Below are positions 5,366 to 24,247 of a stretch of DNA of 64,000 nucleotides, piece by piece; within the stretch, counting starts at the first letter, position 1, and each line of letters starts with the position of its first letter. The stretch spans positions 1 through 64,000 of the forward strand of contig JAFUOO010000004.1 in NCBI GenBank assembly GCA_017472685.1. Direction: 5' to 3'. The notes under the pieces are model-generated. The model searched no databases. It saw nothing but the letters and a program-made list of their open reading frames with translations, and had not been told where the DNA came from. This stretch comes from Clostridia bacterium (GTDB lineage: Bacteria > Bacillota > Clostridia > UMGS1883). Made by a program: the position numbers and the translations under genes.

Positions 5366-5464
5366 ATTTGCCTGCGGCAAATGCGATATGCCTTCGGCGC
5401 GATATGTTAAAAACGCGATATAAATCCCTGCGGGATTTGTGATATGTTTTGCTCACGCAAAACG
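5366..5464. repeat. Hairpin-chain element A (GCGATAT linkers)
   Basis: Five short palindromes in a row: ATTTGCC-TGC-GGCAAAT, GCC-TTC-GGC, GTT-AAA-AAC, AAATCCC-TGC-GGGATTT and GTTTTGC-TCAC-GCAAAAC. Neighbours are joined by GCGATAT (GTGATAT at the last junction). It fills the gap from the kinase stop codon to just before the Shine-Dalgarno of the next gene. Confidence 0.85.
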
Positions 5465-5482
5465 TTAGTTAGGAGTGATGGC

Positions 5483-6340
5483 GTGAAGGACAGAACAAAA
5501 AAGGAAATACGTGATTATTTTTTCATAATAGTCGGCACGGTTATGCTGACATTCGGCGTTTACTTTTTTAAGATACCTAACGGCTTTGCCACGGGCTGCG
5601 TCAGTGGTATTGGTACTATACTGGGCAAGATAACGCCAAATGTTTCACCGGGTAGCTGGATTATGATTATAAACGTGGTGCTGCTGCTTCTCGGCTTTGC
5701 TTTTTTAGGAAAGCAGAACGGCATACGGACGGTTTTCTGCAGCTTACTGTTTTCCTTCCTTACATATGCACTGGAGTTTGTGATGCCGCTTTCAAAACCG
5801 CTTACGGACCAGCCCTTGCTGGAGTTAGTGTATGCAATGCTTTTAACAGCCTTTGGCTCGGCAATTATTTTTAACACAGGCGCCTCCAGCGGGGGTACGG
5901 ACATTGCAGCCTTGATACTTCGAAAGTACACAAGCTGGGATGTGGGCAAAGCACTTTTGGTTATTGACTTTTTTGTTGCCGCGTCAACCTTTGTTGTGTT
6001 CAACGTAAAGGCGGGGCTTTTCTCAATGGCGGGGCTGTTTGCAAAGGCGTTTTTAGTGGACAGTATTATTGACAACATCCAGAGCTGTAAATACTTTGTT
6101 GTTATTACCGACAAGAGCGAGGAAATAAACGCCTACATAACAAAGGAATTGAAGCATTCCTCAACAATTACCGAGGCTATGGGCGGCTACAGCGGTGAGG
6201 GCAAGGTGATGATACACACGGTGTGCAAGCGAATTGAGGCGATAAGGCTACGAAGGCACATTAAAGAGATTGACCCCCATTCCTTTGTGATAATCACAAC
6301 AACAAGCGAAATTATTGGCCGCGGCTTCAGAAGCGTGTAG
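5483..6340 (+). CDS. YitT family membrane protein (DUF2179 domain)
   Basis: 285 residues. The first 190 or so contain five or six hydrophobic segments, starting with FFIIVGTVMLTFGVYFFKIP, followed by the PNGFATGCVSGIGTILG and TGASSGGTDIAALIL segments typical of YitT proteins. The C-terminal 80 residues (from CKYFVVITDKSEEI) form the cytoplasmic DUF2179 domain. The family is widespread in Firmicutes and its transported substrate is not established. GTG at 5483 is chosen because AGGAG lies 7 bases upstream; an in-frame ATG at 5444 lies within the hairpin chain. Probably transcribed with the upstream kinase, since no terminator other than the hairpin chain separates them. Confidence 0.85.
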   Translation: MKDRTKKEIRDYFFIIVGTVMLTFGVYFFKIPNGFATGCVSGIGTILGKITPNVSPGSWIMIINVVLLLLGFAFLGKQNGIRTVFCSLLFSFLTYALEFVMPLSKPLTDQPLLELVYAMLLTAFGSAIIFNTGASSGGTDIAALILRKYTSWDVGKALLVIDFFVAASTFVVFNVKAGLFSMAGLFAKAFLVDSIIDNIQSCKYFVVITDKSEEINAYITKELKHSSTITEAMGGYSGEGKVMIHTVCKRIEAIRLRRHIKEIDPHSFVIITTTSEIIGRGFRSV

Positions 6341-6349
6341 AATGAGCGC

Positions 6350-6461
6350 AAATGAATAATTAATAATGAATGATGAATAATTTCGGTTGAAAATCGCTAT
6401 GACGATTTTCTTCATTAATTTTTCATTATTCAATATTCATCAGCGAAGCGGTTTCATTATT
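6350..6461. repeat. AT-rich intergenic repeat R1, copy 1
   Basis: About 112 bases nearly identical to 24054-24167. It opens with AATGAATAATTAATAATGAA and closes with ATTCATCAGCGAAGCG and TTTCATTATT, so the ends are roughly inverted. The interior has an AAAATCG/CGATTTT hairpin that differs between copies. Both copies are followed by a hairpin containing TTTTGxxCATTGTGCAAA. It resembles a small non-coding mobile repeat. Confidence 0.8.
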
Positions 6462-6504
6462 AATTGCTGTTTTGCACATTGTGCAAAGCAGTAATTAATA
6501 AAAG

Positions 6505-6573
6505 AGAGAGCAATATTTGCAATGTAAAACGCAACTATTGCTCTTTGATTATTGTTTGATATTATGCTACAAT
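6505..6573 (+). promoter_or_regulatory. Hairpin and promoter of the secreted-enzyme operon
   Basis: AGAGCAATA / TATTGCTCT (about 6507-6544) forms a 9-base stem that could terminate read-through from yitT. It is followed by TTGATT (6545-6550) and TACAAT (6568-6573) with a 17-base spacer, upstream of the GH2-like gene. Confidence 0.55.
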
Positions 6574-6609
6574 AGTGTTAAAAGAAGTGCTGTGAAAGGT
6601 GGAATATGA

Positions 6610-9600
6610 ATGAAAAAAGTTCTGATATTTGCACTTGTTGCTATTATGCTTATAGGCATGCTGCCCGCATTTGCCCAGGAGGCTGAGGGCTATACTGCGC
6701 CTGTGGGCGAAAATGTGACCTATAACTTAAATGTTGACTGGAAGTATAAAAGGCCTCCTGTTGCGGTGCCCCTGAAGGATGCCCGCGAGAGCGTGGTTAA
6801 GGACGGCTTGCAGTTTTATGAGGTTGGCTACGACGATTCCGACTGGGAAAATGTCAGCGTGCCTCATGCCATAAACAGTGTTGACTCCTTTGACAATTTA
6901 GGTGTTGACGCAGGGGAAAGCGGATTGTACCGCGGCTTTTCCTTTTACAGAAAGAACATAACAATTGCTCCGGAGCATGTGGGTAAAAAATTTATACTTG
7001 AGTTTGAGGCTGTGCGTCAGACCGTTTACCTTTACGTTAACGGAAAGGAAGCAGGCTACTACGAGGCAGGCGTTACGGCTATGGGCTTTGACATTACGCC
7101 CTACATAGTAGAGGGTGAAAACCTTATTGCCGTTGCAACAGACAACACTGCCGCACGTGGCACAAGCTTTGTTGTGAGTGAAACAAAGCCCGGTGACGAA
7201 ATGGGAACTAACACAGGCTGGGGCTACCAGTGGAACACAAAGGACTTTAACGAGGTCCAGGGCGGTATTACGGGCAATGTAAATTTGTACGTTAAGCCCA
7301 TGCTCTATCAGACATTGCCCCTTTACAGCAACATGAAGACAACAGGTAACTACGTTTATGCCACTGATTTTGACATATTGGGTCACAAGGCGGTAGTTAA
7401 CGTTAAGGCTGAAATACGAAACGAAAGCGGAGTAGATAGGCAGATTACCGTTAAAACAGATGTTGTTGACAGCCAAGGTAAGCTCATAGGCAGCTTTGAA
7501 ACAGCGGCAGGGGTTAAGGCGGCAACGGACAGTGGCGTGACCTTTAAAACCGTTGTGCCCATTGACGCATACGAGGAAAACCCCGCACCCACGCCTACAG
7601 ACACAGTGGAGGTAACCTACGTTACAAACAGCGCCTTAGTTCAAAACCTCAACTTCTGGAGCCCTGACAGCCCTCATCTTTACGATGTGTACACCTCCAT
7701 TATTGAGAACGGCAAGGTTATTGATGTTAATAAAATAACAACAGGCTTCCGTAAGGTTGAATACGACCTTAACGATGGTGGCTTGAAGATTAACGAAAGA
7801 AGCGTGTGGCTTACAGGCTACGCACAGCGCTCCACAAACGAGTGGGCAGTTATAGGTGTTGCCAACGACTGGCTTACAGACATTGACATGCAGCTTGTGA
7901 AGGAGTCAAACGCGAACTTTATCCGCTGGATGCACGTTGCACCCAAGCCCAACGCCATCCGCTCGGGCGACAAGTACGGCGTTGTGTCCGTGTGCCCTGC
8001 AGGCGACAAGGAGGGCGATGTAGGCGGTAGAACATGGGATATGCGTGTTGAAGCAATGCGCGACGCCATGATTTACTTCCGTAACTCTCCGTCTGTGCTT
8101 TTCTGGGAGTCGGGTAACAACCAGATAAGCCCCGAGCATTTGCACGAAATGGGCGAGCTGGAAGCAAAGCTTGACCCCTATACAGACCGCTTCTCGGGCT
8201 GCAGAACACTTAACTCACCCGAGCAGATTACCGAAACCGAATTTGTGGGCACAATGCTCAACCGCCATGCGGCATGGTCAAAGAGCTCCATGGCAACAGT
8301 TAATAAGTTCGTGCCCATTATTGAAACAGAATATGCCCGTGAGGAAGCGCCCAGACGAGTTTGGGACGATTTTTCACCTCCGGATTACGACTACAGAAAC
8401 AAGTGGCTTGGTGCAGGGGCAAAGAAAAAGGACGGCTTTGACGTGCACGACTTGACAAGCGAGGATTTTGCAATAAGCAATGTTTACGGCTATAACGAGT
8501 TTTACAGCGACAGAGTAGGCGGTGTTTCGGGTAACGATTTTTACTCTGCTGCGGCGGCTTTGGTATGGAGTGACTCTAACCAGCACGTGAGAAACTCGGG
8601 CAGTGAAAACTGCAGAACAAGTGGCAAGGTGGACGCTGTGAGAATAAAGAAGCAGGCGTTCTACGCATATCAGGCAATGCAGGCTACAGAGCCCGTTATA
8701 AATATTATAGGTCACTGGAGCTACCCCCAGCTTACCGACGACACCTATTGGTATGAGGTTAAGGAAAAGGTGGGCGGCAGCTTTGCTCCTACAGGAGAAA
8801 AGGCACAGCGTGACCCCAAACATAAGACAGTTTACGTTATAGGCAGTGAAGCGGTTAGTTCAGTTGAGCTTTTTGTAAACGGCGTAAGCCGCGGCGTGTG
8901 CACAGAGCCCAGGGTCAACTTTATATACTTCTTTGACAATATCGATGTTACCGAAAGCGGTACAGTCAGTGCAAAGGCGTATAATGCTAAGGGCGAGGTT
9001 TTGTGCGAGGACAGCATTGTGACAGCAGGCGAGAAGGAAACTGTTCGTCTCACACCTGTAACAGGTCCCGACGGACTTCTTGCCGACGGCAGTGATGTTA
9101 TGTACTTTGATGTTGAAATAGTTGACAAGGACGGCAACGTGTGCCCCCTTGCATATGACAAGATTAACCTTTCCGTTGCAGGTGAGGGCGTGCTTTTAGG
9201 CGGCTACAACTCAGGCGAGGGAGATGCTGTTGAAAACTACGGCTGGAAGGGCGTTAACGAAATAGGTGCTGACTTTGTGTATGCTGAATGCGGCGTTAAC
9301 AGAGTGTTTGTAAGAAGCACAAGAGAGGCAGGCAACATTACACTTACTGCATCAATTGAAGGCATGATGCCCGTGTCCAGAACGGTTAAGTCAAACCCTG
9401 TCACTGTAACAGGCGGCATGATGACAACTCCCCAGAGAAGCTACAAGCAGGGCGAGGTAAAGGTTATCGAGCCCGAAACAGTTACACCCTTAAAGCCTCT
9501 TGCAGGCAAGTTTACACCCGACACTAATACAATCTACATTGCCGAGGCTGAGGTAGCTGAAATTGATACCTACACAGTAACGGTTAACGGCAAGGCTGTT

Positions 9601-9993
9601 CAGTTCTCTGAAAGCCCCTACCGTCCCGACAGCACAACAGGCGTTGTGTGCGCAATTGTGCCTGTGCTGGATGAGCTCTTCTACGCGGGTGCGTGCACAC
9701 CCTATGAATGGACAACTGAAATTCCTTCCTATTGTGACGGACACTCCTTAAGGGTTAATATCATAGGCGGTCTTATTGACGGCTGCAGCAACGTTGAAGC
9801 TGTTAACGGCTCTACGACGCTCTTTATAAATCAAGGCAGCGAAAAGAACTTACTTAACGCTGAAACCTTCATAAACTCCCACGGCGACATAAGCTGTGAA
9901 ATTGCGCCGCTCTTGGGCTACTTAAAGGGCGTTGAATGCAACCTCAACACAGAAACAAAAACACTTGAAATTACATATAAGGAGGCAGAATGA
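6610..9993 (+). CDS. Secreted GH2-like protein with altered acid/base residue
   Basis: 1127 residues with a signal peptide ending near AFAQ at residue 22. Regions in order: GH2 sugar-binding jelly roll (about 50-230, with RGFSFYRKNI and NGKEAGYYEAG), Ig-like domain (about 235-365), TIM-barrel-like part (about 370-690), Ig-like domains including a DUF4982-like VSSVELFVNG segment (about 735-900), and a C-terminal domain resembling a copper-amine-oxidase N-terminal repeat (about 980-1125). In the barrel, SPSVLFWESGNN occupies the place where GH2 enzymes carry GNE; Asn504 sits at the acid/base position. A nucleophile candidate remains at IIETEYA (Glu572 or Glu574). Activity may therefore be altered or lost. 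It overlaps the next gene by four bases (ATGA), so the two are coupled. Confidence 0.8.
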   Translation: MKKVLIFALVAIMLIGMLPAFAQEAEGYTAPVGENVTYNLNVDWKYKRPPVAVPLKDARESVVKDGLQFYEVGYDDSDWENVSVPHAINSVDSFDNLGVDAGESGLYRGFSFYRKNITIAPEHVGKKFILEFEAVRQTVYLYVNGKEAGYYEAGVTAMGFDITPYIVEGENLIAVATDNTAARGTSFVVSETKPGDEMGTNTGWGYQWNTKDFNEVQGGITGNVNLYVKPMLYQTLPLYSNMKTTGNYVYATDFDILGHKAVVNVKAEIRNESGVDRQITVKTDVVDSQGKLIGSFETAAGVKAATDSGVTFKTVVPIDAYEENPAPTPTDTVEVTYVTNSALVQNLNFWSPDSPHLYDVYTSIIENGKVIDVNKITTGFRKVEYDLNDGGLKINERSVWLTGYAQRSTNEWAVIGVANDWLTDIDMQLVKESNANFIRWMHVAPKPNAIRSGDKYGVVSVCPAGDKEGDVGGRTWDMRVEAMRDAMIYFRNSPSVLFWESGNNQISPEHLHEMGELEAKLDPYTDRFSGCRTLNSPEQITETEFVGTMLNRHAAWSKSSMATVNKFVPIIETEYAREEAPRRVWDDFSPPDYDYRNKWLGAGAKKKDGFDVHDLTSEDFAISNVYGYNEFYSDRVGGVSGNDFYSAAAALVWSDSNQHVRNSGSENCRTSGKVDAVRIKKQAFYAYQAMQATEPVINIIGHWSYPQLTDDTYWYEVKEKVGGSFAPTGEKAQRDPKHKTVYVIGSEAVSSVELFVNGVSRGVCTEPRVNFIYFFDNIDVTESGTVSAKAYNAKGEVLCEDSIVTAGEKETVRLTPVTGPDGLLADGSDVMYFDVEIVDKDGNVCPLAYDKINLSVAGEGVLLGGYNSGEGDAVENYGWKGVNEIGADFVYAECGVNRVFVRSTREAGNITLTASIEGMMPVSRTVKSNPVTVTGGMMTTPQRSYKQGEVKVIEPETVTPLKPLAGKFTPDTNTIYIAEAEVAEIDTYTVTVNGKAVQFSESPYRPDSTTGVVCAIVPVLDELFYAGACTPYEWTTEIPSYCDGHSLRVNIIGGLIDGCSNVEAVNGSTTLFINQGSEKNLLNAETFINSHGDISCEIAPLLGYLKGVECNLNTETKTLEITYKEAE

Positions 9994-11378
9994 TGAAAAA
10001 GATAGTTTTATTTATAGCTTTAGCGTTGATGCTTTCTGCCTTTTGTGTGCCTGCCATGGCCTCCGATGCGCTCCTTTTTGAGGATAAGTGCGAAACAGAG
10101 CTTAACGGTGTAGCAGTTATGGAGGGCAGTGTGGACGGAAGTAAATTTTACCGCTGTGAGGGCGCTGACTTAGGCTATCTGCCCTACGAAACCTCGTCGG
10201 ACTTTATTTACGAGCTGGATGTGCGCTTCAATAACGAGGGCTGCGGCTTCTCCTTTATGAAAACGGGCAAGTGGAACAGCTGTATAAGAGTTAAGGACGG
10301 ACATTTTGCTCTTCAGACAGGGGGCAACAACTTTGCAAAGCTTTGTGTGATTGACCTTGATAGTTGGTATCATTTTACCTTCTTAGGCAGAACAAATAAG
10401 GATGCAAATTCCGTTACCTACGGACATATTATCCTTGAAAGGTACGAAAACGGCAAAAGGGTTGACAAGCAGATTTTCCAGAACGTTAACCTCAGAAACA
10501 ATGCGGCAACACACTACATAAACGCTTTCGGCGGCTGTGACCTTGACAACCTAAAGGCATCAGTTCCGTCACCTACATTAGTTGAGCTTTCCTGCGACAG
10601 TGAAAGCATTGTGGCAGGCGAGAGCGCACAGTTTAATGTAGCGGCGTTTTATAACGAGCTGCCCATGCACGGCGTTAACAAAAGTGACATTGCCTTCAGC
10701 CTGTACGATAGTACCGGAGAGTACCTTTTGGAGGACGAAACAATTACCCTTGACGAAAACGGCTTACTCACAACCAACCCCCTTACCCCTGCTCAGGAGG
10801 TAACCATTAAGGTTACAAGTAAGGCGTCAAAGCTTACAAGTGAAAAGAAGCTTAAGATTGTAACAGGCGACATTTTCACCGTAACAGGCATGGGCGTTAA
10901 TTCCCAGGGAACGGTTATTACAAAGCTTGACGTTAAAAAGAACTTTGCCGCATATAAGGACACTGTAACCTTTGCGGTGGCGTTTTATAACCAGGACGGA
11001 AGCCTTAAGGGCTTTGAATATAAGGCGATAAGCGCAAAGACCTTGGGTGAGGGCGACAACACTGTTAACGTGAACATTCCGGTTCCAAGTGGCTTTGACG
11101 TTTACAAGGACAAAATAAATGTGTACGTTGTGACAGCCTTTTCCGGCATAAGTAACGCTGCTAAGGTGAAAGCAGAAGAGTTGCCTCTTTTTGACGGCGC
11201 GGTTGTAATTATATCCGTTAAGGAGGACTGCGACATAGCAAAGGTAAAAGCTGAGGATGTAGTTTACTTTGACATTGTGCATCCTGTAGACGGTAAGGTG
11301 CAGCTGCCCGCCTTTGGCAAAACCTATGTAATGGGCAGTGTTGAAAGACTTGACACATTATTTGAAATAGTAAAATAA
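9990..11378 (+). CDS. Secreted LamG-like protein
   Basis: 462 residues with a signal peptide ending near PAMA. Residues about 28-195 look like a concanavalin/LamG beta-sandwich (FIYELDVRFNNEGCGFSFMK, then SWYHFTFLGRT), usually a carbohydrate-binding module. Residues about 200-290 form an Ig-like bacterial domain ending in TVKVTSKAS-like strands, and the rest is a beta-rich domain. No catalytic motif is visible. It starts inside the stop of the GH2-like gene after GGAGG and ends at a terminator, so the two proteins are probably made in equal amounts and act together on one surface glycan. Confidence 0.65.
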   Translation: MMKKIVLFIALALMLSAFCVPAMASDALLFEDKCETELNGVAVMEGSVDGSKFYRCEGADLGYLPYETSSDFIYELDVRFNNEGCGFSFMKTGKWNSCIRVKDGHFALQTGGNNFAKLCVIDLDSWYHFTFLGRTNKDANSVTYGHIILERYENGKRVDKQIFQNVNLRNNAATHYINAFGGCDLDNLKASVPSPTLVELSCDSESIVAGESAQFNVAAFYNELPMHGVNKSDIAFSLYDSTGEYLLEDETITLDENGLLTTNPLTPAQEVTIKVTSKASKLTSEKKLKIVTGDIFTVTGMGVNSQGTVITKLDVKKNFAAYKDTVTFAVAFYNQDGSLKGFEYKAISAKTLGEGDNTVNVNIPVPSGFDVYKDKINVYVVTAFSGISNAAKVKAEELPLFDGAVVIISVKEDCDIAKVKAEDVVYFDIVHPVDGKVQLPAFGKTYVMGSVERLDTLFEIVK

Positions 11379-11388
11379 AAAAACATAC

Positions 11389-11418
11389 AAAAAGAGGGGA
11401 TTTCCCCCTCTTTTTTGT
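11389..11418 (+). terminator. Rho-independent terminator
   Basis: AAAGAGGGG / CCCCTCTTT stem followed by T residues, closing the GH2-LamG operon. The terminator after the next gene (about 14798) has almost the same stem. Confidence 0.85.
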
Positions 11419-11465
11419 TTGCAGTTAAGGCAAAAAAGTGCTAAAATAAAAGGGAGGTGAAATAC

Positions 11466-14400
11466 ATGAAAAAGGTTATTTGTTTATTGGTTGCATTATT
11501 AATGCTTATTGGCTTGCTTCCCCTGGCGAGCCTTGCGGAGGAGGGTGAGGTTACATACCTTTTGCGTGATGTCAATGACGGGGCTGCTACAGAGGTGGCA
11601 ATGAGCAGGTATAAAACCTACCAGACGGAGCATTTCCAGATTTTTTACGATACAGATGGTGCAAACAGCCATCTTGTGACAGACGCGTTTCTGGAGCAGT
11701 GCGAAGCGGTGCTTGAAAACTGCTGGGACTTATTTATAGTTAAAATGGGTATGGAGCCTACAACCACATCGGTGCTGCCCAATGGCGACCATAATACACA
11801 GTATAAGACTAACGTTGTATTAATGGGTACAGGTGTTGACCACTATTACCTTGATGCTAACGGCTGGGGTGCCTACGGAAGCGTTGACACAGCGGGTTAT
11901 CCCTACTTTATGTGCTGTATTGCGGCTATGAGCTCACCTACAACAGTTGCTCATGAGTTCGGTCATGCGGTGCATTATGCCCAGGGCGACAATGCATGGG
12001 AAAACAATATTTACCTTGGCCCCTGGTTTGAGGCTGTGGCAAACTGGTTTGCAGAGCAGTATATGTACGAATACGACACAAATATTGCTTACGATACGGA
12101 GCTTTCCCACTTGTACCTTCGTGCCACGCATTTGACTAAGATGAACGGACGTGGCTACTATGAGGCATGGCCCATACTTCAGTATCTGACAGAAGACCCC
12201 GATAATACGGGCATTTACGGAAAAACCTTTGTGCAGAAGCTGCTTGGCTACAACTCGGGAAGCACAAACACCCTTTTCTGGGAAGTGTTAGAAGAGTGTA
12301 ATGGTGATTTGACCACTGCCGACACTGTAGGCTTATACGCCTCCCACATGGCAACCTTGGATTTTGAAAACAAAGAAAACTATAATAACAAGATAAACTC
12401 ACTTATAAATGCGAGGGTATTTTACTGGCAGCAGAGATACACAATGCTTGAAAAGCTGGGTGATGTAAGTGGCACCTATGCTGTGCCCATAGAAAGAGCA
12501 CCCGAGGCTATGGGCTATAATATTATTCCTCTTGAGTTTACTCCCGGGGAAGTAAGTGTGACACTTAACTCCTTGACCGACACAGAGGGCGCAAGCTGGC
12601 GTGCAAGGCTTGTTATTGAAAGTCAGGCAGGCGAAACAAGCTATTCGGACCTTTTTAAAGAAGGGGAAACAATGCCAGTGACCGTGGGCGAAACAGACAC
12701 TCTTTATCTTACGGTTGCGGCTACGCCAGAATTGGACACAGTGGTGCGCCACACAATAGGTGGCTGGGCGACACATTCCACAGAGAGTAATATGCCCTAT
12801 GAGGACAAAACAATTTATCCCTATTCTGTTACATTAGAAAATGCAGAGCCCATGGAAAGACCCAAGACAGGCTACGGCATGATGACTGTGCATCCTAACG
12901 GCGGAGGCAGAAAAGCCTTTACGGCAAAGGTTGATGACAGTGCATACATTGGCCCTGATGCAATTGTGTGGGGCTATGCAGAGGTAACAGACAATGCAGT
13001 AATTGACGGCTATGCAATTGTTGGCGGCAATGCAAAGGTCGGCGGCAATGCTTATGTTGGCGATTACGCGGTGCTTTTTGACAGAGCAGAGGTAACAGAC
13101 AATGCAAGAGTGATTGAAAACGCCTGCTTGTATGTTGATTATAAGGTCAGTGGCAATGCTGTTGTAAAGGGAAGCAGCTTAGGTCTTTATAACGGAGGAG
13201 CATCGGGCGAGGCTATTACGTACGGCGACTGGTTTGAAGATATGGGTTACCATATTGCAGGCGGCAGCTTTTCGGGTTATCATGCAATATCGGCGGATGA
13301 CAGCTACGCACCCTTAGTGCTTGACGGAGCTCATGTAAGGAGCTATGCACCTGCTCTGCGTGCAAGCTACGAATTTGATGCTTCTTTGCGTGACAGCGTT
13401 GCATACAGCGATGCATACTCTGTTGGAGAAACCATCTTTGAGAGCGGCAGTGCAGTATTTGACAACAATAATTATGTGGCGCTGAACAAGTCGGTTTTAC
13501 ATTACGACAATGCAAAAATTACTGTAAGCGCTCAGGGCGAGGGCGATGTACTCACGCTTGGCGACCTTACCCTTACCTTTACTGAGGATGCAATAAAGCT
13601 TACAACCCAAATGGGCGAGGCTGAAGTGAGTAAAAAAGAGGGCTTTAATGAAATTGAGCTCGTATTTGACGAAAACAAGGTAAGCCTTAACGGTAAATGG
13701 GTTGAATGCACCGCTCTGTCTGCATCTGTCCGTGAGGGAGGCTGCTATCTTGGCTGCAACTTTACAGGTAAGGTGGACTACCTCAGAATTTTTGACGGAA
13801 CTGCACCGGAAGGCGCTTTCCGCACTGTGGAGGATGCAGATGTTATTTTTGAAGCTGACGAAAGCTCGGGCACGGTTTTTGCAAGCGGAAAAGATGAAAG
13901 CTCGGCGTGGTACGGCTGGAGCGCAGTGAATACAAACGCATACGCTGTAGACGGTGGTCTCAACATTACGGGCAACGGCACAGGTACAATTAATTCGCCA
14001 TTGTACCAGACGGACAAATTTGTGCTCGAATTTGAGCCTATGGGCGGAAAAGCCTACCCCGACCACGGCATAACCGACATTGACGGTGATGTGCTTTTTG
14101 CACACCGCTATGCCTCTGACGCTAATGCAATTCATGCAGGGCGTGGCGAAATAAACGATAGTATAAGAGGCACAAGCTTTGTGACAGATACCACAGGGCA
14201 GAAGAGGCTTAGTAATTTTGTGGCAGAAAAGCTTTACGGCGCATCCATACGCTCGGACAGAGGCGCAATAGGCTATAGTGTGGGCGACACTGTACGCATT
14301 ACTGCCGAAAACCGTATCTGGAGCGAGGGTATGGCAGAATCTTTCGCGGCAAGCGAAAATAAAACGTCCAATTTTGGTAACATGACAGAGGGCGAAAAGG

Positions 14401-14795: not shown

Positions 14796-14797
14796 TA

Positions 14798-14826
14798 AAA
14801 AAGAGGGGATTTTCCCCTCTTTTTTG
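14798..14826 (+). terminator. Rho-independent terminator
   Basis: AAAGAGGGGA / TCCCCTCTTT stem with a T run, three bases after the stop codon. Confidence 0.9.
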
Positions 14827-14854
14827 TTGCTTTTTTTTCTGTTAGTTGTATAAT
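14827..14854 (+). promoter_or_regulatory. Sigma-A-type promoter
   Basis: TTGCTT (14827-14832) and TATAAT (14849-14854), 16-base spacer, upstream of the DUF5695-like gene. Confidence 0.6.
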
Positions 14855-14884
14855 AAAACCAGGGAAATTTTTGGAGGAACAGAT

Positions 14885-17800: not shown

Positions 17801-19651
17801 GCCCAGAGGGTTAACTATGGCGGAAAAATAGCAAACTTCACCTGCATTAATTCAGGACAGATTGACGCCGACAGTGAAAACATAGGAACTGTTTCCTGGA
17901 CCTACCAGGCAGAATTGGGGCACAGTGGCGGTCAGGGCACAGGCGGAGGAAAATTACACAACGGCTGGAGGCAGATGGCAGGCGAAGCTGATTTAGGGCT
18001 TTTCGGCGCACTTGAAATAATATCTGCCGATGTGGCGCGAGACCCTGTTTTCGGCCTCTTTGGCTACGGCTGTGAGGCAGAAGAAACAAGAGACAGCTAC
18101 ACAGTTATCCCCCGTGATGCACTCTGTATGAGGCTTAACTTTATAAACGAGCATTTAAGTTTGGAAATCACGGGCGCAACCTATGAAAAGGCTGTTGTTG
18201 ATAAAAACAAGGAATATATTGAGCTCGACATAACGGATGACGGCAGCTTCACACAGATTAAAATTGACGGGCTCAAGAAGGGCGAAATGTATGCTCTTTA
18301 TTCAAACGGTCGCATCAAGGCAACAAGCCGTGGCGAAGATGGCTACTTCTCCTACAGTGGCGACACGAGCGGCAAGGTTGTTATTAAAAAGGCTGACCAT
18401 GTGAAATATATTGAGCCCTACACACTTCCCAAGGGCGAGGAAGTGGGTGCTGTGCGAGGCAAAACAGAGGGCACCATGTTTGTTTATTTTGATACCACCT
18501 ACGATGAAGTGAAATACGTAGGCGATGTTAAAATTGAGGAAACACGGGTTTATTCCGACGGAACTGTAAGAAGCTATGTGCGCCTTAGTAACGCCTTTAC
18601 AAATAATGTTGACGATTTTGTGTTGGGAATAAACATAGGCTTTGAAAAAATGCAGAAGGAGGGCGTAAGGGTTATTGAATTTTCCGACATGGAGGGACGT
18701 AACCTTTCCGTTGTATTCGGCAAGGATAATGAATTGGGTCTTAACATTAACGGGGAATTTATTTCCTCGGGTGTGTGTTTGCCCGAAAAGTACGAGGGCT
18801 ATGTGGTGCTTCAGAGCATAAAGGGTAAGCTTCAGCTAATCTGCGGAGGGGATGTAATTCTTTCTTATGTTACGCCTTTGCGTCTTAAGGATTTTGGCGA
18901 AGTTCAGCGTAACTACATAGGCCGCGGCAGCGACGAAAGTACGGGAAGCTTAGACGGCTTCTATTCTGACTTTGTGTTCAGCCTTGATTACTGGAAGTTT
19001 GAAATTGAGGACGATACAGAGGCTGTAGCGGTAAGCTATGAGGAGATTGTTTACGACACACTGTCGCCCTTACCCGAAAGCGTTATGGTGACCTACTCCG
19101 ACGGCTTCAGGAGAAGATGCAAAATTGCCTGGGGAGAGGAGAAGGACGGCTACATATTTGGCATGGCAGATAATCTTGAAATAAAGGCTGAAATACGAAG
19201 GGTTAACCTTGATGTTAACCACGCACCTACGGCTACTGCCACTGCAAGCTACTGCGCTGCATGGGAAAGCGTGAATGCTTTAAATGATGGAATATACACC
19301 TTGGAAACAAGTAACCCATCGTCAGAGGAAATGCTCCGCTTCGGCACATGGACCCGTGATAGTAGCGAAGAGTGGATACAGTACACCTGGGAGAAAGAAA
19401 AGGACATTAACGCCATAGGCTTAGTGTTCTTTGACGATGGCGGCGGAACACGTGCGCCCGTAAGCTACAAGATAGAATACCTTAACGAAAACGGCGAATG
19501 GAAGAGTGCCGAGAAGGTGGCAGGGCTTAACAATACGCTTAAGAAAATGAACATAACAAGCTTTGAAAAGGTGACGACAAAGTCCATCCGCGTTGTTATG
19601 AGTAAAGGCACTTATGCAGGCATTGGCGTTCTGGAATGGGAAGTATATTAA
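14885..19651 (+). CDS. Giant secreted protein: HExxH domain, DUF5695-like region, discoidin-like C-terminus
   Basis: 1588 residues; signal peptide ending near SFAED. Residues about 30-260 carry HEATH at 160-164 with a downstream NYHEYFAGQVGRFF segment, consistent with a zinc-dependent peptidase or basic-secretory-protein-like fold. From about 279 to 1150 the sequence (KIGEYGQIESL, WMGELIFTTK, GDWGMPMAFNQYW) resembles the DUF5695 family, whose members occur with glycosidases but are uncharacterised to my knowledge; this part includes a helical region like an (alpha/alpha) barrel. A LamG-like sandwich follows (about 1220-1370). Residues 1444-1588 are discoidin-like, with FDDGGGTRAPVSYKIEY as also found beside GH127 enzymes. 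ATG at 14885 follows GGAGG. A peptidase head joined to a glycan-active body suggests a glycoprotein target. Confidence 0.7.
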   Translation: MKKAISILMCAVMVMGLLPVVSFAEDFVCKREITSPPEWMNAEAGYESFYTKCVTVYSIPICSTNDVPDEALFKAYDVIEILLRKIAKEYPEIVRQMNKHRVNVIIVGENETNAMHPSWRNWEDKAERRGGGGRETTVLVEDLIVPESDTWRRSFAGLVHEATHTLLTYGIGDAQGIGARQDIYERILACYENAASKDMYPYPNEYDASNYHEYFAGQVGRFFNGSPTELPVENASNLTDREELEAYDPDVYKICTELFGLYELPEPWGTGENHEEKENSMLSTNSLQMKIGEYGQIESLRIIDDINADFCNTEYVLNAKNAPNQGNSDEHNWMGELIFTTKRNGEWIEYKTSGQDRAIKYEDGKITVIYEGDFKVVETYRVENDAIVWETEVINNKDSDLTIGDWGMPMAFNQYWTPAYSGEELYDTRCVYHSFVGKNSSYIYATRPSGQGKMLLFTPVGETGAGFEYRDHWRVNNGHNGSVWAQDQAGYHSGLDVFYIHSESIQKTGSGYMPSTSLTLKAGESKKYAFKFTAVDNEEDLKSTLYEAGVIDAVAVPSMAFATDMPARFYLHANDEVEINNVYGKCVHETLLYSAQENMVNNNHPCTGQAEIEFAETVTYKNEKYHVYDIKLNCLGANHVYVDYTLKGKKMETMLQFYAMEPLGDAIERRSEFLTKHQTDTPGMVGDKTFDDWMMDNKANRADVTNGYWDMSYWGYGDDWALTHGEYLAQKNVYMPAENQVKAVDEYLDVAIWNTLMREHQEDYLIHDFLSSEPNLSPTYRGYAYPHIYNTYFAMYRICASYPDLIDYKEDRLTYLLRAYNILKALYSDKVAYNWATGLMGEITTPDIIEALYFEGLTDEAKEVERIMGIKYNNFKNTKYPYGSEYSYDNTGEEAVYTLAKMNDNDTMMYKIDLKTRACRGLQPVWYYYANPVTICGENWWNFQYTAALAGYCMDDYLRYVDESMTEDERAIAQRVNYGGKIANFTCINSGQIDADSENIGTVSWTYQAELGHSGGQGTGGGKLHNGWRQMAGEADLGLFGALEIISADVARDPVFGLFGYGCEAEETRDSYTVIPRDALCMRLNFINEHLSLEITGATYEKAVVDKNKEYIELDITDDGSFTQIKIDGLKKGEMYALYSNGRIKATSRGEDGYFSYSGDTSGKVVIKKADHVKYIEPYTLPKGEEVGAVRGKTEGTMFVYFDTTYDEVKYVGDVKIEETRVYSDGTVRSYVRLSNAFTNNVDDFVLGINIGFEKMQKEGVRVIEFSDMEGRNLSVVFGKDNELGLNINGEFISSGVCLPEKYEGYVVLQSIKGKLQLICGGDVILSYVTPLRLKDFGEVQRNYIGRGSDESTGSLDGFYSDFVFSLDYWKFEIEDDTEAVAVSYEEIVYDTLSPLPESVMVTYSDGFRRRCKIAWGEEKDGYIFGMADNLEIKAEIRRVNLDVNHAPTATATASYCAAWESVNALNDGIYTLETSNPSSEEMLRFGTWTRDSSEEWIQYTWEKEKDINAIGLVFFDDGGGTRAPVSYKIEYLNENGEWKSAEKVAGLNNTLKKMNITSFEKVTTKSIRVVMSKGTYAGIGVLEWEVY

Positions 19652-19652
19652 T

Positions 19653-19756
19653 GTTGACTTCGTCAACGTGATATATTTGCCTACGCAAATGCGATATGTG
19701 CGTTGCACGCGATATAAATCCCTGTGGGATTTGCGATATGTTCGGCTGTGCCGAAC
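19653..19756. repeat. Hairpin-chain element B (GCGATAT linkers)
   Basis: Five palindromes: GTTGAC-TTC-GTCAAC, ATTTGC-CTAC-GCAAAT, GTGC-GTT-GCAC, AAATCCC-TGT-GGGATTT and GTTCGGC-TGT-GCCGAAC, joined by GTGATAT once and GCGATAT three times. The last hairpin ends about 8 bases before the GAGAGGAG ribosome binding site of the GH127 gene. Confidence 0.9.
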
Positions 19757-19780
19757 GTGAACGAGAGGAGATAATAAGAA

Positions 19781-21715
19781 ATGGGTATTAAGACAAACGA
19801 ATTTGCGCCTTTAAAAAATGTAAAGGTGAAGGACGGCTTTTGGTCAAAGTATGAGGACATTGCGAAAAATGTTATCATTCCCTATCAGTGGGAGGCGCTT
19901 AACGACCGCGTGCCCGACACAGCACCCAGCCATGCAATAGAAAATTTCCGCATTGCTGCAGGGGAAGCAGAGGGTGAGTTCCATGGCTTTGTTTTCCAGG
20001 ACAGCGATGTGGCAAAATGGCTTGAGGCAGTAGCTTACCGCCTCACCATTGCCCCCGACGAAAACTTGGAGAAAACAGCCGACGATGTGATTGACCTTAT
20101 CGGCAGAGCACAACGTGAGGACGGATATCTGGACACCTATTACCTTTTGAAGGAAAAGGGCAAGGAATTTACAAATTTACTTGACTGTCACGAAATGTAC
20201 GTTGCAGGCCACATGGCGGAGGCGGCTGTTGCATACTTTGAAGCAACAGGCAAGAGAAAGCTTTTAGACATTATCTGTAAGTTTATTGACCTTATTGCAA
20301 CAAGAGTTGGTAAGGAGGAGGGCAAAATCCACGGCTACAGTGGCCATCCTGAAATTGAGCTTGCGCTTGTGAGAGTGTACAAGGCAACAGGTGAAAGGAA
20401 ATACCTTGATTTTTGCGAATATTTAGTTAACGAACGCGGCACAGAGCCGAACTTTTTCCAACAGGAATTGGAAAGCCGCAACTTTATAAACATGTGGGGC
20501 GGCACCGACAAAAAGGCAGACACTGTTTACTGTCAGGCACATAAGCCCCTTCGCGAGCAGAAGGAAGCGGCAGGTCACAGCGTGCGTGCAGGCTATCTCT
20601 ACACAGGTGCAGCACACCTTGCTGTGGAAACAGGCGACAAGGAGCTTTTTGACACCTGCGAAACACTCTGGGACAACGCCACCCAAAAGCAGATGTATGT
20701 AACAGGCGGCTTTGGCTCACAGGTGCACGGCGAAGCCTTCAGCTTTGACTATCAGCTGCCCAACGATTTATCCTACACCGAAACCTGCGCCGCAATAAGC
20801 TTTTTGTTCTTTGCGCAGAAAATGCTCATGTGCGATGTAGATTCCAAGTATTCCGATGTTATGGAAAGGATTTTATACAACGGCTCAATTTCGGGCATGG
20901 CGCTTGACGGCAAGCATTTCTTCTACACAAACCCGTTAGAGACCTGGGACGAGCAGAACAAACGCGTTCCTGCCTTCCGTCACAATAAGATAAAGCGCCC
21001 GGGCTGGTTTGGCTGTGCCTGCTGCCCGCCTAACCTGGCGAGAATGATAACTTCCTTAGGTAACTATATTTACTCCACAGGTGACAACACAATTTACACA
21101 CACCTTTACATAGGCAGCGATGCAAAAGTAAAGGTGGGCGATTGGAGTGTTACCATAAGCCAGAAGTCCTCAATGCCCTGGGAGGGTAAGAGTGAGTTTA
21201 CACTTTCAGGCGGCAGCTACACCTTTGCCGTAAGAGTGCCCTTCTGGGCTGATAAGTTTAACCTGAGTGTTAACGGCAAGGCGGTAGAATATGAGGTTAA
21301 AAAGGGCTACGCATACATAAAAGGCGATTGGAAGGACGGCGACAAGGTGACAGTTGACATGCCCCTTGAAGTTAAAATGATTGAAGCAAACCCCTTTGTT
21401 CGGGCAGACAGTGGCAAGGTTGCAATTTGCCGCGGACCTGTGGTGTACTGCTTAGAGAGCAAGGACAACGGCGACAGACTGTCCTCTATCCGTCTTGTGG
21501 GTGAAGCAGATTTCCGCTGCGAAAAGGACGAAGAGCTTTTCCCCAATAGTGTAAGCATTTATGCAAAGGCACTTAAGAAAAAGGCTTGGGAAACAAACGA
21601 TTTGTACAAGGCATTTACAGCAAGCTTTGACGAAATTGAAATAAAGCTGATACCCTACGCATTTTGGGGCAATAGGGATGATAACAGAGAGATGGCGGTT
21701 TGGGTACGTTATTAA
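19781..21715 (+). CDS. GH127 beta-L-arabinofuranosidase
   Basis: 644 residues, no signal peptide, so cytoplasmic. GH127 enzymes release beta-1,2-linked L-arabinofuranose using a zinc-bound cysteine nucleophile. All expected residues are present: Glu318 in VHGEAF (acid/base), Glu334 and Cys336 in YTETCAA, and the pair Cys414-Cys415 in FGCACCPPNLAR, equivalent to the Zn-cysteine site described for HypBA1. The N-terminal (alpha/alpha)6 barrel (to about residue 440) is followed by two beta-sandwich domains. ATG follows GAGGAG. The neighbouring giant protein has a C-terminal domain like those accompanying GH127, which supports a joint role in using arabinosides, possibly hydroxyproline-linked ones, imported after extracellular digestion. 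Confidence 0.92.
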   Translation: MGIKTNEFAPLKNVKVKDGFWSKYEDIAKNVIIPYQWEALNDRVPDTAPSHAIENFRIAAGEAEGEFHGFVFQDSDVAKWLEAVAYRLTIAPDENLEKTADDVIDLIGRAQREDGYLDTYYLLKEKGKEFTNLLDCHEMYVAGHMAEAAVAYFEATGKRKLLDIICKFIDLIATRVGKEEGKIHGYSGHPEIELALVRVYKATGERKYLDFCEYLVNERGTEPNFFQQELESRNFINMWGGTDKKADTVYCQAHKPLREQKEAAGHSVRAGYLYTGAAHLAVETGDKELFDTCETLWDNATQKQMYVTGGFGSQVHGEAFSFDYQLPNDLSYTETCAAISFLFFAQKMLMCDVDSKYSDVMERILYNGSISGMALDGKHFFYTNPLETWDEQNKRVPAFRHNKIKRPGWFGCACCPPNLARMITSLGNYIYSTGDNTIYTHLYIGSDAKVKVGDWSVTISQKSSMPWEGKSEFTLSGGSYTFAVRVPFWADKFNLSVNGKAVEYEVKKGYAYIKGDWKDGDKVTVDMPLEVKMIEANPFVRADSGKVAICRGPVVYCLESKDNGDRLSSIRLVGEADFRCEKDEELFPNSVSIYAKALKKKAWETNDLYKAFTASFDEIEIKLIPYAFWGNRDDNREMAVWVRY

Positions 21716-21719
21716 AGAC

Positions 21720-21816
21720 GTTGCCTTTGGCAACGCGATATGTGCTGCGCACGCGATATACCTTCGGTGCGATATATTTGCCTTTGGCAAATGCGATATG
21801 TTCGGCTTTGCCGAAC
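21720..21816. repeat. Hairpin-chain element C (GCGATAT linkers)
   Basis: The most regular copy: GTTGCC-TTT-GGCAAC, GTGC-TGC-GCAC, ACC-TTC-GGT, ATTTGCC-TTT-GGCAAAT and GTTCGGC-TTT-GCCGAAC, with GCGATAT at all four junctions. It fills the GH127-comM gap and stops shortly before the ribosome binding site of comM. Confidence 0.92.
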
Positions 21817-21838
21817 GTGAGACAGGAAGGAGATTATT

Positions 21839-23356
21839 ATGGTAGTTAAGGTTAATACGGCAACTCTCTTGGGCATTGAAGGTAAGATTGTTATTGCCGA
21901 GGCTGATTTTTCGGGCGGGCTACCCTCATTTGACATTGTAGGGCTTCCCGATGCGGCAGTTAAGGAAGCAAAGGAGAGAGTTAAAGCCGCCATACGAAAC
22001 AGCGAGTTTGAATTTCCTGCAAAAAAAGCTGTCATTAACCTTGCGCCTGCCGATTTGAAAAAGGAGGGCTCCCAGTTCGACCTGCCAATTGCAGTTGCCT
22101 GCCTTGCGGGCACAGGTCAAATAAAGGGCAGCTTTGACGATTACGTATTTTTAGGCGAATTAGGCTTGTCGGGAGATATAAGAGGCGTGAGCGGTATTCT
22201 GCCCTCGGTTATAGGTGCCAGGGACGCGGGCTTTGCAAAGTTTATTGTGCCATATGAAAACCGCGAGGAAGCCGCCTTGGTTGAAAACGTGGAAATTTAC
22301 GGCGCAAAAAGCCTCAGTGAGGTTTATTGCCACATAACGGGCGAAAAGGTGATAGATAAAACAGAAACGCAGCTTATACACGAGGAAGAGCTTTTGTACG
22401 ATTTTGACTTTTATGAGGTTAAAGGTCAGGAAAAGCTTCGCCGAGGCGTTGAAATTGCCGTTGCAGGAGGGCACAACGTTTTAATGGTTGGCTCACCCGG
22501 CTCGGGCAAAAGCATGATTGCAAAGCGCATACCCACAATTATGCCCCCCATGACCTTTGACGAGGTGCTGGAGGTTACGAAAATACATTCCGTTGCAGGG
22601 GTGCTACAAAGCGGTAAGGCTGTTACAAAGCGTCCCTTCCGTGCACCGCACCACAGCGCCTCGGGCGTGAGCATTGTGGGCGGTGGCGCCAAGGCAAAGC
22701 CGGGCGAAATTTCCCTTGCGCATAAGGGCGTGCTGTTTTTGGACGAGCTGCCCGAATACAAAAAGGATGTTATCGAGGCGATGCGTCAGCCCATTGAGGA
22801 CGGCGCGGTTACCGTTGCAAGAGCAACGGGCACGTACACGTATCCTGCCAATGTGATGCTTGTTTGTGCAATGAACCCCTGCCGATGCGGCTACTACGGC
22901 GACAAAAACAAAAAGTGCCGCTGCAGTGAAAGCGATGTTGCGAAATATCTTAATAAGGTTTCTGGACCCATGCTTGACAGAATTGACATTCAGCTTGAGG
23001 CAAAAAGCGTAAATTACGACGATTTGCAAAAGCCCAAGGGCGAATCGAGTGCGGCACTAAGAGAGAGAATTGAAAAGGCACGGGCAATACAGCAGGAGCG
23101 CTATAAAAACGAAAGCGTTACTTGTAATGCTGACCTTTCGGGGTACTTAGTTGAAAAGTACTGCGTCCTTGGCGAGGATGAAAAGGCACTTTTGGAAAAT
23201 GCCTTCAAAACTATGACCCTTTCCGCACGCGCCTACACACGCATTCTTAAGGTGGCACGCACCATTGCAGACTTAGACGGCAGAGAAAATATTGACACTA
23301 TGGACATTGCCGAAGCAATAGGGTACAGAAGTTTGGATAAGAAGCTTTGGAAATAA
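21839..23356 (+). CDS. YifB/ComM family Mg-chelatase-like AAA ATPase
   Basis: 505 residues. The N-terminal 180 or so residues carry the Lon-protease-like ATP-independent fold (VKVNTATLLGIEGKIVIAEA). The AAA+ core has Walker A GSPGSGKS near residue 220 and Walker B LFLDELPEY, followed by AMNPCRCGYYG with the paired cysteines typical of this family. The C-terminal part ends in a helical domain (SARAYTRILKVARTIADLDG). ComM promotes branch migration during integration of foreign DNA in naturally transformable bacteria; dprA also lies in this window, at 58.2 kb. Start has GGAG upstream. The gene is probably transcribed from the GH127 side through the hairpin chain. Confidence 0.9.
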   Translation: MVVKVNTATLLGIEGKIVIAEADFSGGLPSFDIVGLPDAAVKEAKERVKAAIRNSEFEFPAKKAVINLAPADLKKEGSQFDLPIAVACLAGTGQIKGSFDDYVFLGELGLSGDIRGVSGILPSVIGARDAGFAKFIVPYENREEAALVENVEIYGAKSLSEVYCHITGEKVIDKTETQLIHEEELLYDFDFYEVKGQEKLRRGVEIAVAGGHNVLMVGSPGSGKSMIAKRIPTIMPPMTFDEVLEVTKIHSVAGVLQSGKAVTKRPFRAPHHSASGVSIVGGGAKAKPGEISLAHKGVLFLDELPEYKKDVIEAMRQPIEDGAVTVARATGTYTYPANVMLVCAMNPCRCGYYGDKNKKCRCSESDVAKYLNKVSGPMLDRIDIQLEAKSVNYDDLQKPKGESSAALRERIEKARAIQQERYKNESVTCNADLSGYLVEKYCVLGEDEKALLENAFKTMTLSARAYTRILKVARTIADLDGRENIDTMDIAEAIGYRSLDKKLWK

Positions 23357-23360
23357 CCTA

Positions 23361-23388
23361 TTGACAAAATTGAATAACGCGATATAAT
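23361..23388 (+). promoter_or_regulatory. Strong sigma-A promoter for the thiamine-uptake operon
   Basis: Consensus TTGACA (23361-23366) and TATAAT (23383-23388), 16-base spacer. It lies directly upstream of the TPP riboswitch and 4 bases after the comM stop. Confidence 0.8.
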
Positions 23389-23396
23389 TAAAAGTG

Positions 23397-23480
23397 CATT
23401 AGGGGAGCTGAGGCAACGAAGCTGAGAGGATATCCGACCCTTATGACCTGATCAGAGTAATGTCTGCGTAGGCAAATGTA
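23397..23480 (+). promoter_or_regulatory. TPP riboswitch
   Basis: Contains the thi-box landmarks in order: AGGGGAGCTGAGG, GCTGAGAGGAT, GACCCTTATGACCTGATC and GTAATGTCTGCGTAGG. TPP binding should promote termination at the hairpin at 23585-23618, shutting down the thiamine-binding protein and ThiXYZ-like importer downstream. This fits the predicted function of that operon. Confidence 0.95.
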
Positions 23481-23508
23481 CACAAAGTCTTTATTGGTGG
23501 GGGGATAA

Positions 23509-23555
23509 CACCTCATCCGTCGCCTTTGGCGACACCTTCTCCTCAAGGAGAAGGC
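23509..23555. repeat. CACCTCATCC repeat R2, copy 1, inside the riboswitch leader
   Basis: Starts CACCTCATCC, then a GTCGCC-TTT-GGCGAC hairpin, then CCTTCTCC-TCAA-GGAGAAGG. The same architecture occurs at 29936-30046 and 45621-45673. It lies between the TPP aptamer and its terminator, so it is transcribed as part of the expression platform. Confidence 0.85.
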
Positions 23556-23584
23556 TATAAGGAAATTTATTTTATGTGTATATA

Positions 23585-23618
23585 AAGCGCAAGCATTATG
23601 CTTGTGCTTTTTTTGTCT
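23585..23618 (+). terminator. Terminator downstream of the TPP riboswitch
   Basis: AAGCGCAAGC / GCTTGTGCTT stem (one G-T pair) followed by seven T residues. Probably the terminator switched by the riboswitch. A further hairpin CTTGAAA/TTTCAAG follows at 23617-23638. Confidence 0.8.
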
Positions 23619-23649
23619 TGAAAGTCCGGAATTTCAAGCAAGAAAGGAT

Positions 23650-23739
23650 ATAAATCGATATGTTTCCTGCGGAAACTCGATATATCCAAAGATTCGATAT
23701 GCTTATTTCGTAAGCTCGATATGTTCGGCAATACCGAAC
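23650..23739. repeat. Hairpin-chain element D (TCGATAT linkers)
   Basis: GTTTCC-TGC-GGAAAC, ATC-CAAA-GAT, GCTTA-TTTCG-TAAGC and GTTCGG-CAATA-CCGAAC joined by TCGATAT rather than GCGATAT. It ends about 12 bases before the AAGGAG of the thiamine-binding protein gene. Confidence 0.8.
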
Positions 23740-23760
23740 GAGAAAGAAAGGAGAAGTAGT

Positions 23761-24054
23761 ATGACAGAAGCAAGTGTGGCAATACAGGTGTTGCCAAAGG
23801 TTAGTGAAACAGCCGAGGTTTTGCGCATTGTGGACAAGGTTATTGAATACATAGCATCTACAGGCTTTAAGTATTTTGTGGGCCCCTTTGAAACAACCAT
23901 CGAGGGCGACTATGATTCTTTAATGGAAATTGTAAAGGAATGCAACAAAATTTGCATCCGCGAGGGCGCAGGCGGTGTAAGCACCTATGTGAAAATTTCC
24001 TATAACCCCGAGGGCGTATTGACAATAGGCGAAAAGGTGGATAAGTACATGTAA
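23761..24054 (+). CDS. Thiamine-binding family protein (MTH1187/YkoF-like)
   Basis: 97 residues, a one-domain member of the MTH1187/YkoF superfamily of small ferredoxin-like-fold proteins that bind thiamine or its precursors in the cytoplasm. Visible features are the ASVAIQVLP first strand, the KYFVGPFETTIEGDYDSLMEI centre and the GVSTYVKISY strand. It is the first gene after the TPP riboswitch and is followed by the ABC importer, which supports a role in thiamine or pyrimidine-precursor salvage. ATG at 23761 follows AAGGAGAAGTAGT; the upstream in-frame extension crosses hairpins and is rejected. The neighbouring genes contain no thiamine biosynthesis enzyme, so the operon is dedicated to uptake. 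Confidence 0.88.
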   Translation: MTEASVAIQVLPKVSETAEVLRIVDKVIEYIASTGFKYFVGPFETTIEGDYDSLMEIVKECNKICIREGAGGVSTYVKISYNPEGVLTIGEKVDKYM

Positions 24055-24167
24055 ATGAATAATTAATAATGAATGATGAATAATTTCGGTTGAAAATCGC
24101 CAAATATGATTTTCTTCATTAATTTTTTATTATTCAATATTCATCAGCGAAGCGATTTCATTATTCA
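24054..24167. repeat. AT-rich intergenic repeat R1, copy 2
   Basis: Near-identical to 6350-6461. It begins at the stop codon of the thiamine-binding protein gene and is followed by a TTTTGTGCATTGTGCAAAA hairpin that starts hairpin chain E. Confidence 0.8.
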
Positions 24168-24171
24168 TTAC

Positions 24172-24247
24172 GTTTTGTGCATTGTGCAAAACGCAAAGTG
24201 CGATATAAATCCCTGTGGGATTTGCGATATGTTCGGCGTTGCCGAAC
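24172..24247. repeat. Hairpin-chain element E (GCGATAT linkers)
   Basis: GTTTTGTGCATTGTGCAAAAC, then AAATCCC-TGT-GGGATTT and GTTCGGC-GTT-GCCGAAC with GCGATAT linkers. It ends directly before the AAAGGAG of the permease gene, inside the thiamine operon. Confidence 0.85.

Follow-up and report, generated by a model that had tools for sequence, protein, structure and literature searches.

Hairpin chains of a Clostridia bacterium as probable members of a two-half, dialect-bearing repeat family linked to IVP genes

Five chains of small hairpins (A to E), each joined by a constant heptamer linker that is GCGATAT in most cases, lie in the first 64,000 nucleotides of contig JAFUOO010000004.1 of a Clostridia bacterium (assembly GCA_017472685.1; this whole stretch is called the window). 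We think it probable that A to E belong to a family of paired chains with complementary linkers, some of which stand beside or around a gene for a 23S rRNA-intervening sequence protein (IVP), and that the protein is likely to bind its own chain and likely to aid the spread of copies that lack the gene (orphans). The five chains are all present as the preliminary description had drawn them, but that description had missed the organization in two halves with complementary linkers, the dialects of the linker and the settings other than that before a start codon. The finding is larger than first stated: it concerns an intervening sequence (IVS)-like repeat family of gut Clostridia whose linkers come in dialects, with a recognition code that can be put to the test. 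Below, G-codes denote genomes (G000 being that of the window), L-codes fetched loci, and C a contig.

Two-half architecture of the chains

The occurrence of chains was compared with dinucleotide shuffles in 397 kb of the window's own genome (contig C8 with a part of C6, not selected for chains). Chains with at least two linkers numbered 26 compared to 3.6 in the shuffles, and those with at least three linkers 3 compared to 0.05. The heptamer GCGATAT was counted 239 + 165 times and the reversed pattern 73 + 76 times. At loci chosen by linker spacing alone, a flush stem of at least 3 bp was found in 241 of 384 distinct inter-linker segments, against 25.05 in shuffles. These comparisons bear out the proposed enrichment of linker and palindrome over shuffled sequence and exclude plain palindromic noise.

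At many loci a mirror image of the chain comes after it, within a distance of about 16-130 bases. A complete element consists of an outer hairpin, then four linkers separated by hairpins, a short centre (often GTGA..GGATTT ATATC ATATCGC) and the inverted half, in this order. The heptamer linkers of the two halves are reverse complements, so that a fishbone could form by pairing between linkers. Of 61 distinct two-half elements, 55 had the same majority linker dinucleotides on left and right (GC/GC 42, TC/TC 7, AT/AT 6), the 61 being taken from 64 rows in which three loci had been fetched twice. Predicted RNA folds of 58 elements showed pairing of at least two left linkers with right linkers in 52. 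Among 26 complete elements oriented with the AAA-first half to the left, 25 had four left linkers and hence, counting the outer one, five hairpins, and one complete element folded as single-stranded DNA was more stable than its shuffles (z -3.57). A recurrent sequence like GGCATCTAAATCGTTYACTGATTT was also observed 3' of right ends in several genomes (e.g. L119, L186, L191, L197, L215); since it recurs behind complete elements, the repeated unit may reach beyond the chain.

The three-linker pattern was found in at least 119 stretches of the genome collection. Among the stretches listed, many come from gut Clostridia, Oscillospiraceae and Ruminococcus assemblies and others are plainly unrelated; false positives recognized by eye include several non-clostridial contigs. 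In whole genomes of the class the pattern was matched in 27 of 391, some of these matches being false by eye (e.g. G386, G166, G143, G038, G022, G082), with 0 for the reversed pattern in the control columns, and its distribution is patchy even inside one family. Dense strings of GCCTACGGC-GATATT-style mini-hairpins were seen in Bacteroidota contigs (L078, L081, L095, L026, L058) and are possibly a separate repeat of similar look.

IVP genes and linker dialects

A small gene with a Shine-Dalgarno sequence (SD) against the complete element, whose product begins M[NS][DE]KTIKELA.., recurs in the right flanks of complete elements. Its protein matched PF05635, the 23S rRNA-intervening sequence protein (82.6 and 78.3 bits, cut-off 33.8), and TIGR02436, four helix bundle protein (92.4, cut-off 24); PDB entry 2rld, which holds five chains of one sequence, is a solved relative (85.9 bits). 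Of 20 chain-bearing genomes, which had been selected for their GCGATAT chains or for kinship, 18 held an IVP, and of 14 control genomes none did; among genomes of the class the figure was 42 of 118. The preliminary description had allowed for a protein that reads the linker, and IVP is the predicted candidate for this partner.

The association between IVP genes and chains was determined with a strict, linker-agnostic detector (three + three copies, one mismatch, hairpins required). Of 52 IVP genes, 22 had a two-half chain with any linker in the 380 nt upstream (17 among the 28 genes of the first set and 5 among the 24 of the second), compared with only 1 of 325 control open reading frames (Fisher 2.5e-20). 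When two direct and two inverted copies of an exact heptamer were required instead, the figures were 20 of 52 and 3 of 325. Two successive blocks of a heptamer repeated at least three times occurred at 30 of 78 IVP loci, L320 and L321 having been dropped as the same genes as L275 and L274; complementarity was not required in this search, and 28 of the 30 loci held at least one exactly reverse-complementary pair of blocks, the exceptions being L315 and L330. By eye, the surroundings of 30 IVP genes showed two-half chains with other linkers, five being unclear (L270, L275, L279, L282, L290). The IVP gene itself lies between the halves at L265, L277, L291 (= G000:C8:286523-286813) and, with the linker GTTATAT, on G000:C28. 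A promoter-like TATAAT was observed between chain and IVP gene at L265, L273, L287, L288, L289 and L338. Because such a box stands between chain and gene at some loci and before the outer hairpin at others, the chain may be transcribed differently from one dialect to another. A 23S rRNA setting of the IVP genes was rejected, no large-subunit rRNA match being found in the five IVP loci scanned (L296, L298, L302, L305, L269).

About ten linker dialects were distinguished, including GCGATAT, TCGATAT, ATGATAT, RTGAAAT, GCTAAAT, ATGAATT and ATGATGT. Near IVP genes the linkers included GCTAAAT/ATTTAGC, ATGATGT/ACATCAT, GTGAAGT/ACTTCAC, ATGAATT/AATTCAT, GTGATAT/ATATCAC and RTGAAAT. With labels set by eye, least surely for L225, L274, L276, L322, L336 and L337, dialect required 14 changes on a tree of 75 IVP proteins, where the minimum is 12, the shuffled mean was 51.4 and none of 200 shuffles was as low. 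This tree was made without L281 and L282, which are short, and L333; the label TTCATTA is A/T-rich and weak, and L317, one of the 28 loci with a complementary block pair, carries no labelled dialect. On a 52-protein tree dialect changed 12 times, compared with 31.1 when shuffled. The dialect of the chain thus follows the lineage of the protein.

Copy number was related to the cognate IVP in the 20 genomes, in which a dialect was assigned to part of the IVP genes and the IVP-linked copy itself was counted. GCTAAAT triples numbered 6, 28, 34 and 53 in genomes with the cognate IVP and 0-5 in the 16 without (p 0.0009). TCGATAT triples numbered 1, 9, 10, 15, 35 and 131 with the cognate IVP and 0-22 in the 14 without (p 0.006), the latter including G274:C24, where a weak IVP match stands beside a TCGATAT chain. 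The TCGATAT match is less clean than that of GCTAAAT.

Five IVP genes are present in the window's own genome. The one at C26:79143-79427, 15 kb past the window, lies directly behind a complete TCGATAT element, that at C8:286523 is enclosed in an ATGATAT element, and those on C3 and C17 adjoin A/T-rich inverted repeats. At C28:5744 the left half of a GTTATAT element is followed after 23 nt by the IVP start, and the right half comes after the gene. This cassette is the model for A to E; its 23 nt before the IVP start compare with 19-24 nt before the host starts in A to D.

Setting, turnover and interpretation of the chains

The chains of the window are listed in Table 1 together with neighbouring features. 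Each of A to E begins after a coding region, and all five are one-sided, no inverted half being found near them. The bases 3' of the last hairpin are GTTA in A, GTGA in B and C, GAGA in D and GTGT in E, followed by an SD and a start codon (GTG at about 5483 for A, 23761 for D), with 17 nt between the last hairpin and the start in E. Siting right before start codons, as first proposed, holds for these five but not as a general rule: among 37 one-sided chains in a genus sample, an SD and start were found within 80 nt downstream of 10, and on the opposite strand of 4.

Table 1. Hairpin chains and neighbouring features in the window
Feature	Positions	Strand	Description
Chain A	5366..5463	+	Five hairpins (stems ATTTGCC/GGCAAAT, GCC/GGC, GTT/AAC, AAATCCC/GGGATTT, GTTTTGC/GCAAAAC); four linkers at 5383, 5399, 5415, 5439 (GCGATAT three times, GTGATAT)
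Chain B	19653..19756	+	Five hairpins; linkers at 19668 (GTGATAT), 19691, 19709, 19733
Chain C	21720..21816	+	Five hairpins; linkers at 21735, 21753, 21769, 21793
Chain D	23655..23739	+	TCGATAT dialect; four hairpins; linkers at 23655, 23677, 23694, 23716
Chain E	24171..24247	+	Three hairpins; linkers at 24200, 24224
Two-half element	28566..28776	+	ATGATAT/ATGAAAT dialect; without protein gene
Second two-half element	55769..55959	+	ATGATAT dialect; without protein gene
TPP riboswitch	23391-23491		RF00059, 60.4 bits
Distinct intergenic repeat	~23503-23560		CACCTCATCCGTC...CTCAAGGAGAAGGCT
A/T-rich inverted repeats	24056-24170		TGAATAATGAA type; 5' of chain E

The thiamine pyrophosphate (TPP) riboswitch and a terminator-like hairpin with a T run precede chain D and a set of genes that looks, by eye, like an operon for uptake of thiamine or pyrimidine; chain E is located within this set as well. 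The CACCTCATCCGTC...CTCAAGGAGAAGGCT repeat, whole or in pieces, is also present at junctions of G003 and G001, where it fills junctions at which other species carry hairpin chains. Repeats like the TGAATAATGAA type flank the IVP genes L275, L290 and L325 and may be a further, degenerate dialect.

Comparison of orthologous junctions in four congeners revealed turnover of the chains. Chain B is present only in G000, with short spacers in G001, G002 and G003, and chain C is present in G000 and G002 and absent from G001 and G003. A GCGATAT chain stands at junction E in G000, an ATGAAAT chain in G003 and none in G001. In chain C of G002, two of the five hairpins have other stems, while the architecture is retained and the linkers differ in a single base; at a site shared by L217 and L232, the stems of a complete element differ on both arms with pairing kept. 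The modular structure that had been proposed, with stems and linker kept and loops varying, is borne out, and the presence or absence of chains among congeneric species agrees with a repeat that spreads, as had also been suggested.

The reading that we favour, as the most economical, is that of a two-component repeat, made up of IVP and a hairpin chain. IVP, a ring-forming four-helix bundle, would recognize the hairpins and the linker in a folded strand, either RNA or single-stranded DNA. Copies would move or be copied as selfish units, orphan chains being copied or moved in trans by an IVP of matching dialect, and they would be tolerated just behind stop codons or terminators and before ribosome binding sites. 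This would parallel the 23S rRNA IVS, whose tolerance is explained by their excision by RNase III. Chains A to E would be left halves, a host gene occupying the place that the IVP gene has in the complete cassette. More tentatively, this may be a novel selfish system of two components with a readable code, in which a pentameric IVP ring docks one hairpin of a five-hairpin half per subunit and checks the linker, each lineage copying and protecting chains of its own dialect alone and the orphans placing host genes under IVP control.

Several results weigh against the favoured reading. The strict detector found no upstream chain at 30 of the 52 IVP genes, some of which carry a chain around the gene, and by the same detector no chains of this kind occur in the IVP clade L295-L307, so that the link is not family-wide. 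An IVP frame of at least 55 aa was present in 2 of the 119 chain-pattern loci listed (L045 and L084; at most 8 kb each, some not true chains), and most chains are therefore orphans. No IVP match was obtained in the chain-bearing genomes G003 and G323 (73% and 71% complete), no IVP frame lies within the window, and no IVP of the GCGATAT dialect was found in the window's own genome (89% complete), yet most linkers of A to E are GCGATAT. A flush target-site duplication was not detected, as no match longer than 2 nt was found among 58 flanked two-half elements, and the mean longest shared flank word (4.30) lay inside the permuted range (mean 3.98); purine-rich repeats seen by eye, AAGAAAGGA at D and AAGGAGTGGA at G000:C8:51152, were left out as target-site duplications because they are SD-like. 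The near-constancy of the chain C linkers between G000 and G002 is not explained by linker pairing alone, since a partner half is lacking. Finally, binding of the chain by IVP and movement of the copies, like the mode of integration and any effects on host genes, are what we infer.

The main rival is a host role in mRNA leaders. The chains would then be host-owned elements, either hairpin leaders or spacers between cistrons, with a role in protection or processing or in adjusting translation of the next gene, and the IVP gene would be only one among many users. This is possible, though we judge it unlikely. A strong orientation speaks for it: in 40 oriented GC/TC complete elements, a stop codon within 100 nt 5' of the left end was on the same strand only in 18, on the opposite strand only in 1, on both in 4 and on neither in 17 (29, 10, 11 and 20, respectively, for 70 one-sided chains). 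In addition, a -10-like box was present 13-45 nt 5' of the left linker in 9 of the 40, and the order promoter, chain, SD, start was seen by eye at L051, L196 and L203. The stem changes in chain C, with pairing kept and one linker base different, and the rarity of IVP at the listed chain loci also agree with a host element. On the other hand, the sites are not conserved, B occurring in one of the four congeners and C in two, with differing dialects at junction E; several complete elements follow a terminator-like hairpin (by eye), where little transcription is expected; and the match between dialect and IVP lineage is not predicted by a host role. A role as terminator only was rejected, as by eye the left ends variously follow a terminator-like hairpin, a -10 box or a stop codon; chain D itself follows a terminator-like hairpin with a T run.

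It is improbable that the chains act at the level of DNA, as a binding site or cruciform for chromosome organization or insulation of transcription units. At several loci elements do stand between terminator-like hairpins and promoter-like boxes (by eye), and the single-stranded DNA fold described above is in keeping with such a role, but the distribution is patchy and dialect-specific. Copying of the hairpins as single strands by a Y1 transposase, as for repetitive extragenic palindromes (REPs) and their REP-associated tyrosine transposases (RAYTs), is very unlikely. A hairpin with a short conserved tag resembles REPs, and Y1_Tnp was matched in 9 of 13 chain-bearing genomes, but it was missing from the other four (G000, G011, G112, G113); around Y1 genes, a GATAT/GAAAT-linker parser gave a poor two-linker match in one of 13 stretches and no chain in the other 12, and the Y1 transposase was thus rejected as a general motor. 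A retro-element in which reverse transcriptase copies chain RNA, IVP being related to the diversity-generating retroelement protein Avd, which PF05635 resembles according to the excerpt of PMC10053308, is just as doubtful, since RVT_1 was matched in only 5 of 20 chain-bearing genomes, too few for a general motor.

Comparison with known systems

The favoured reading gives a joint context to two orphans, the Gut-1 RNA and the IVP/S23p family. The dialects track the protein tree and so allow recognition between protein and nucleic acid to be tested sharply and cheaply; they also hint at a route by which 23S rRNA IVS could have originated from elements outside rRNA. No link between PF05635 and a hairpin-chain repeat was found among the open-access papers listed, as judged by titles and the beginnings of abstracts.

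Whether the chains belong to a catalogued repeat family had been left to be checked, and a fragment of the family is indeed catalogued: the Gut-1 RNA (RF01706) is a fragment of this IVS-like repeat family. Its three hairpins and GUGAAAU linkers correspond, by eye, to one half of the ATGAAAT/GTGAAAT dialect, and the chains share its feature of three hairpins joined by a single-stranded heptamer linker. With the Gut-1 covariance model, the left half of L116 scored 51.7 bits (cut-off 50) and L025 49.7 bits, while in the window B (30.9 bits), C (21.4) and E (18.5) were below the cut-off, D was not listed up to an E-value of 10, and A had no match in the gathering-threshold scan, the only scan covering it. 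Gut-1 has been listed since 2010. The excerpt of PMC2864571, which offers no explanation for it, presents it as a free noncoding RNA from human gut samples only, its nature as RNA being certain and a cis-regulatory role improbable. In contrast to a free RNA, it appears here as half of a two-half element, in one of about ten dialects, linked to IVP genes.

The chains resemble REP/REPIN-RAYT (TnpA-REP) systems in being intergenic palindromic repeats possibly mobilized by a cognate protein, as far as those systems are described in the excerpts of PMC3116915 and PMC8266576. They differ in that the partner is a four-helix bundle and not a Y1 transposase, and in their multi-hairpin halves with complementary linkers. 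Homology of PF05635 with Avd has been suggested (PMC10053308, excerpt); unlike the case of Avd, no reverse transcriptase match was found in 15 of 20 chain genomes.

The parallel in the literature is the 23S rRNA IVS. According to the part of PMC4990558 used here, this is a structured insert with an S23p frame that is excised by RNase III and has been called selfish; the S23p of Xanthomonas is a homopentamer, and the IVP/S23p family is described there without a known function. An S23p/IVP reading frame is present in some complete relatives of the chains, and none lies in the window. Unlike 23S rRNA IVS, chains A to E lie between protein genes and not in rRNA genes, and the family consists of hairpin chains with repeated heptamer linkers and many copies without a protein. 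As in the 23S rRNA IVS (PMC4990558, same part), however, the protein belongs to the same family and complementary ends close the structure around its gene, as at G000:C8, L277, L265 and G000:C28.

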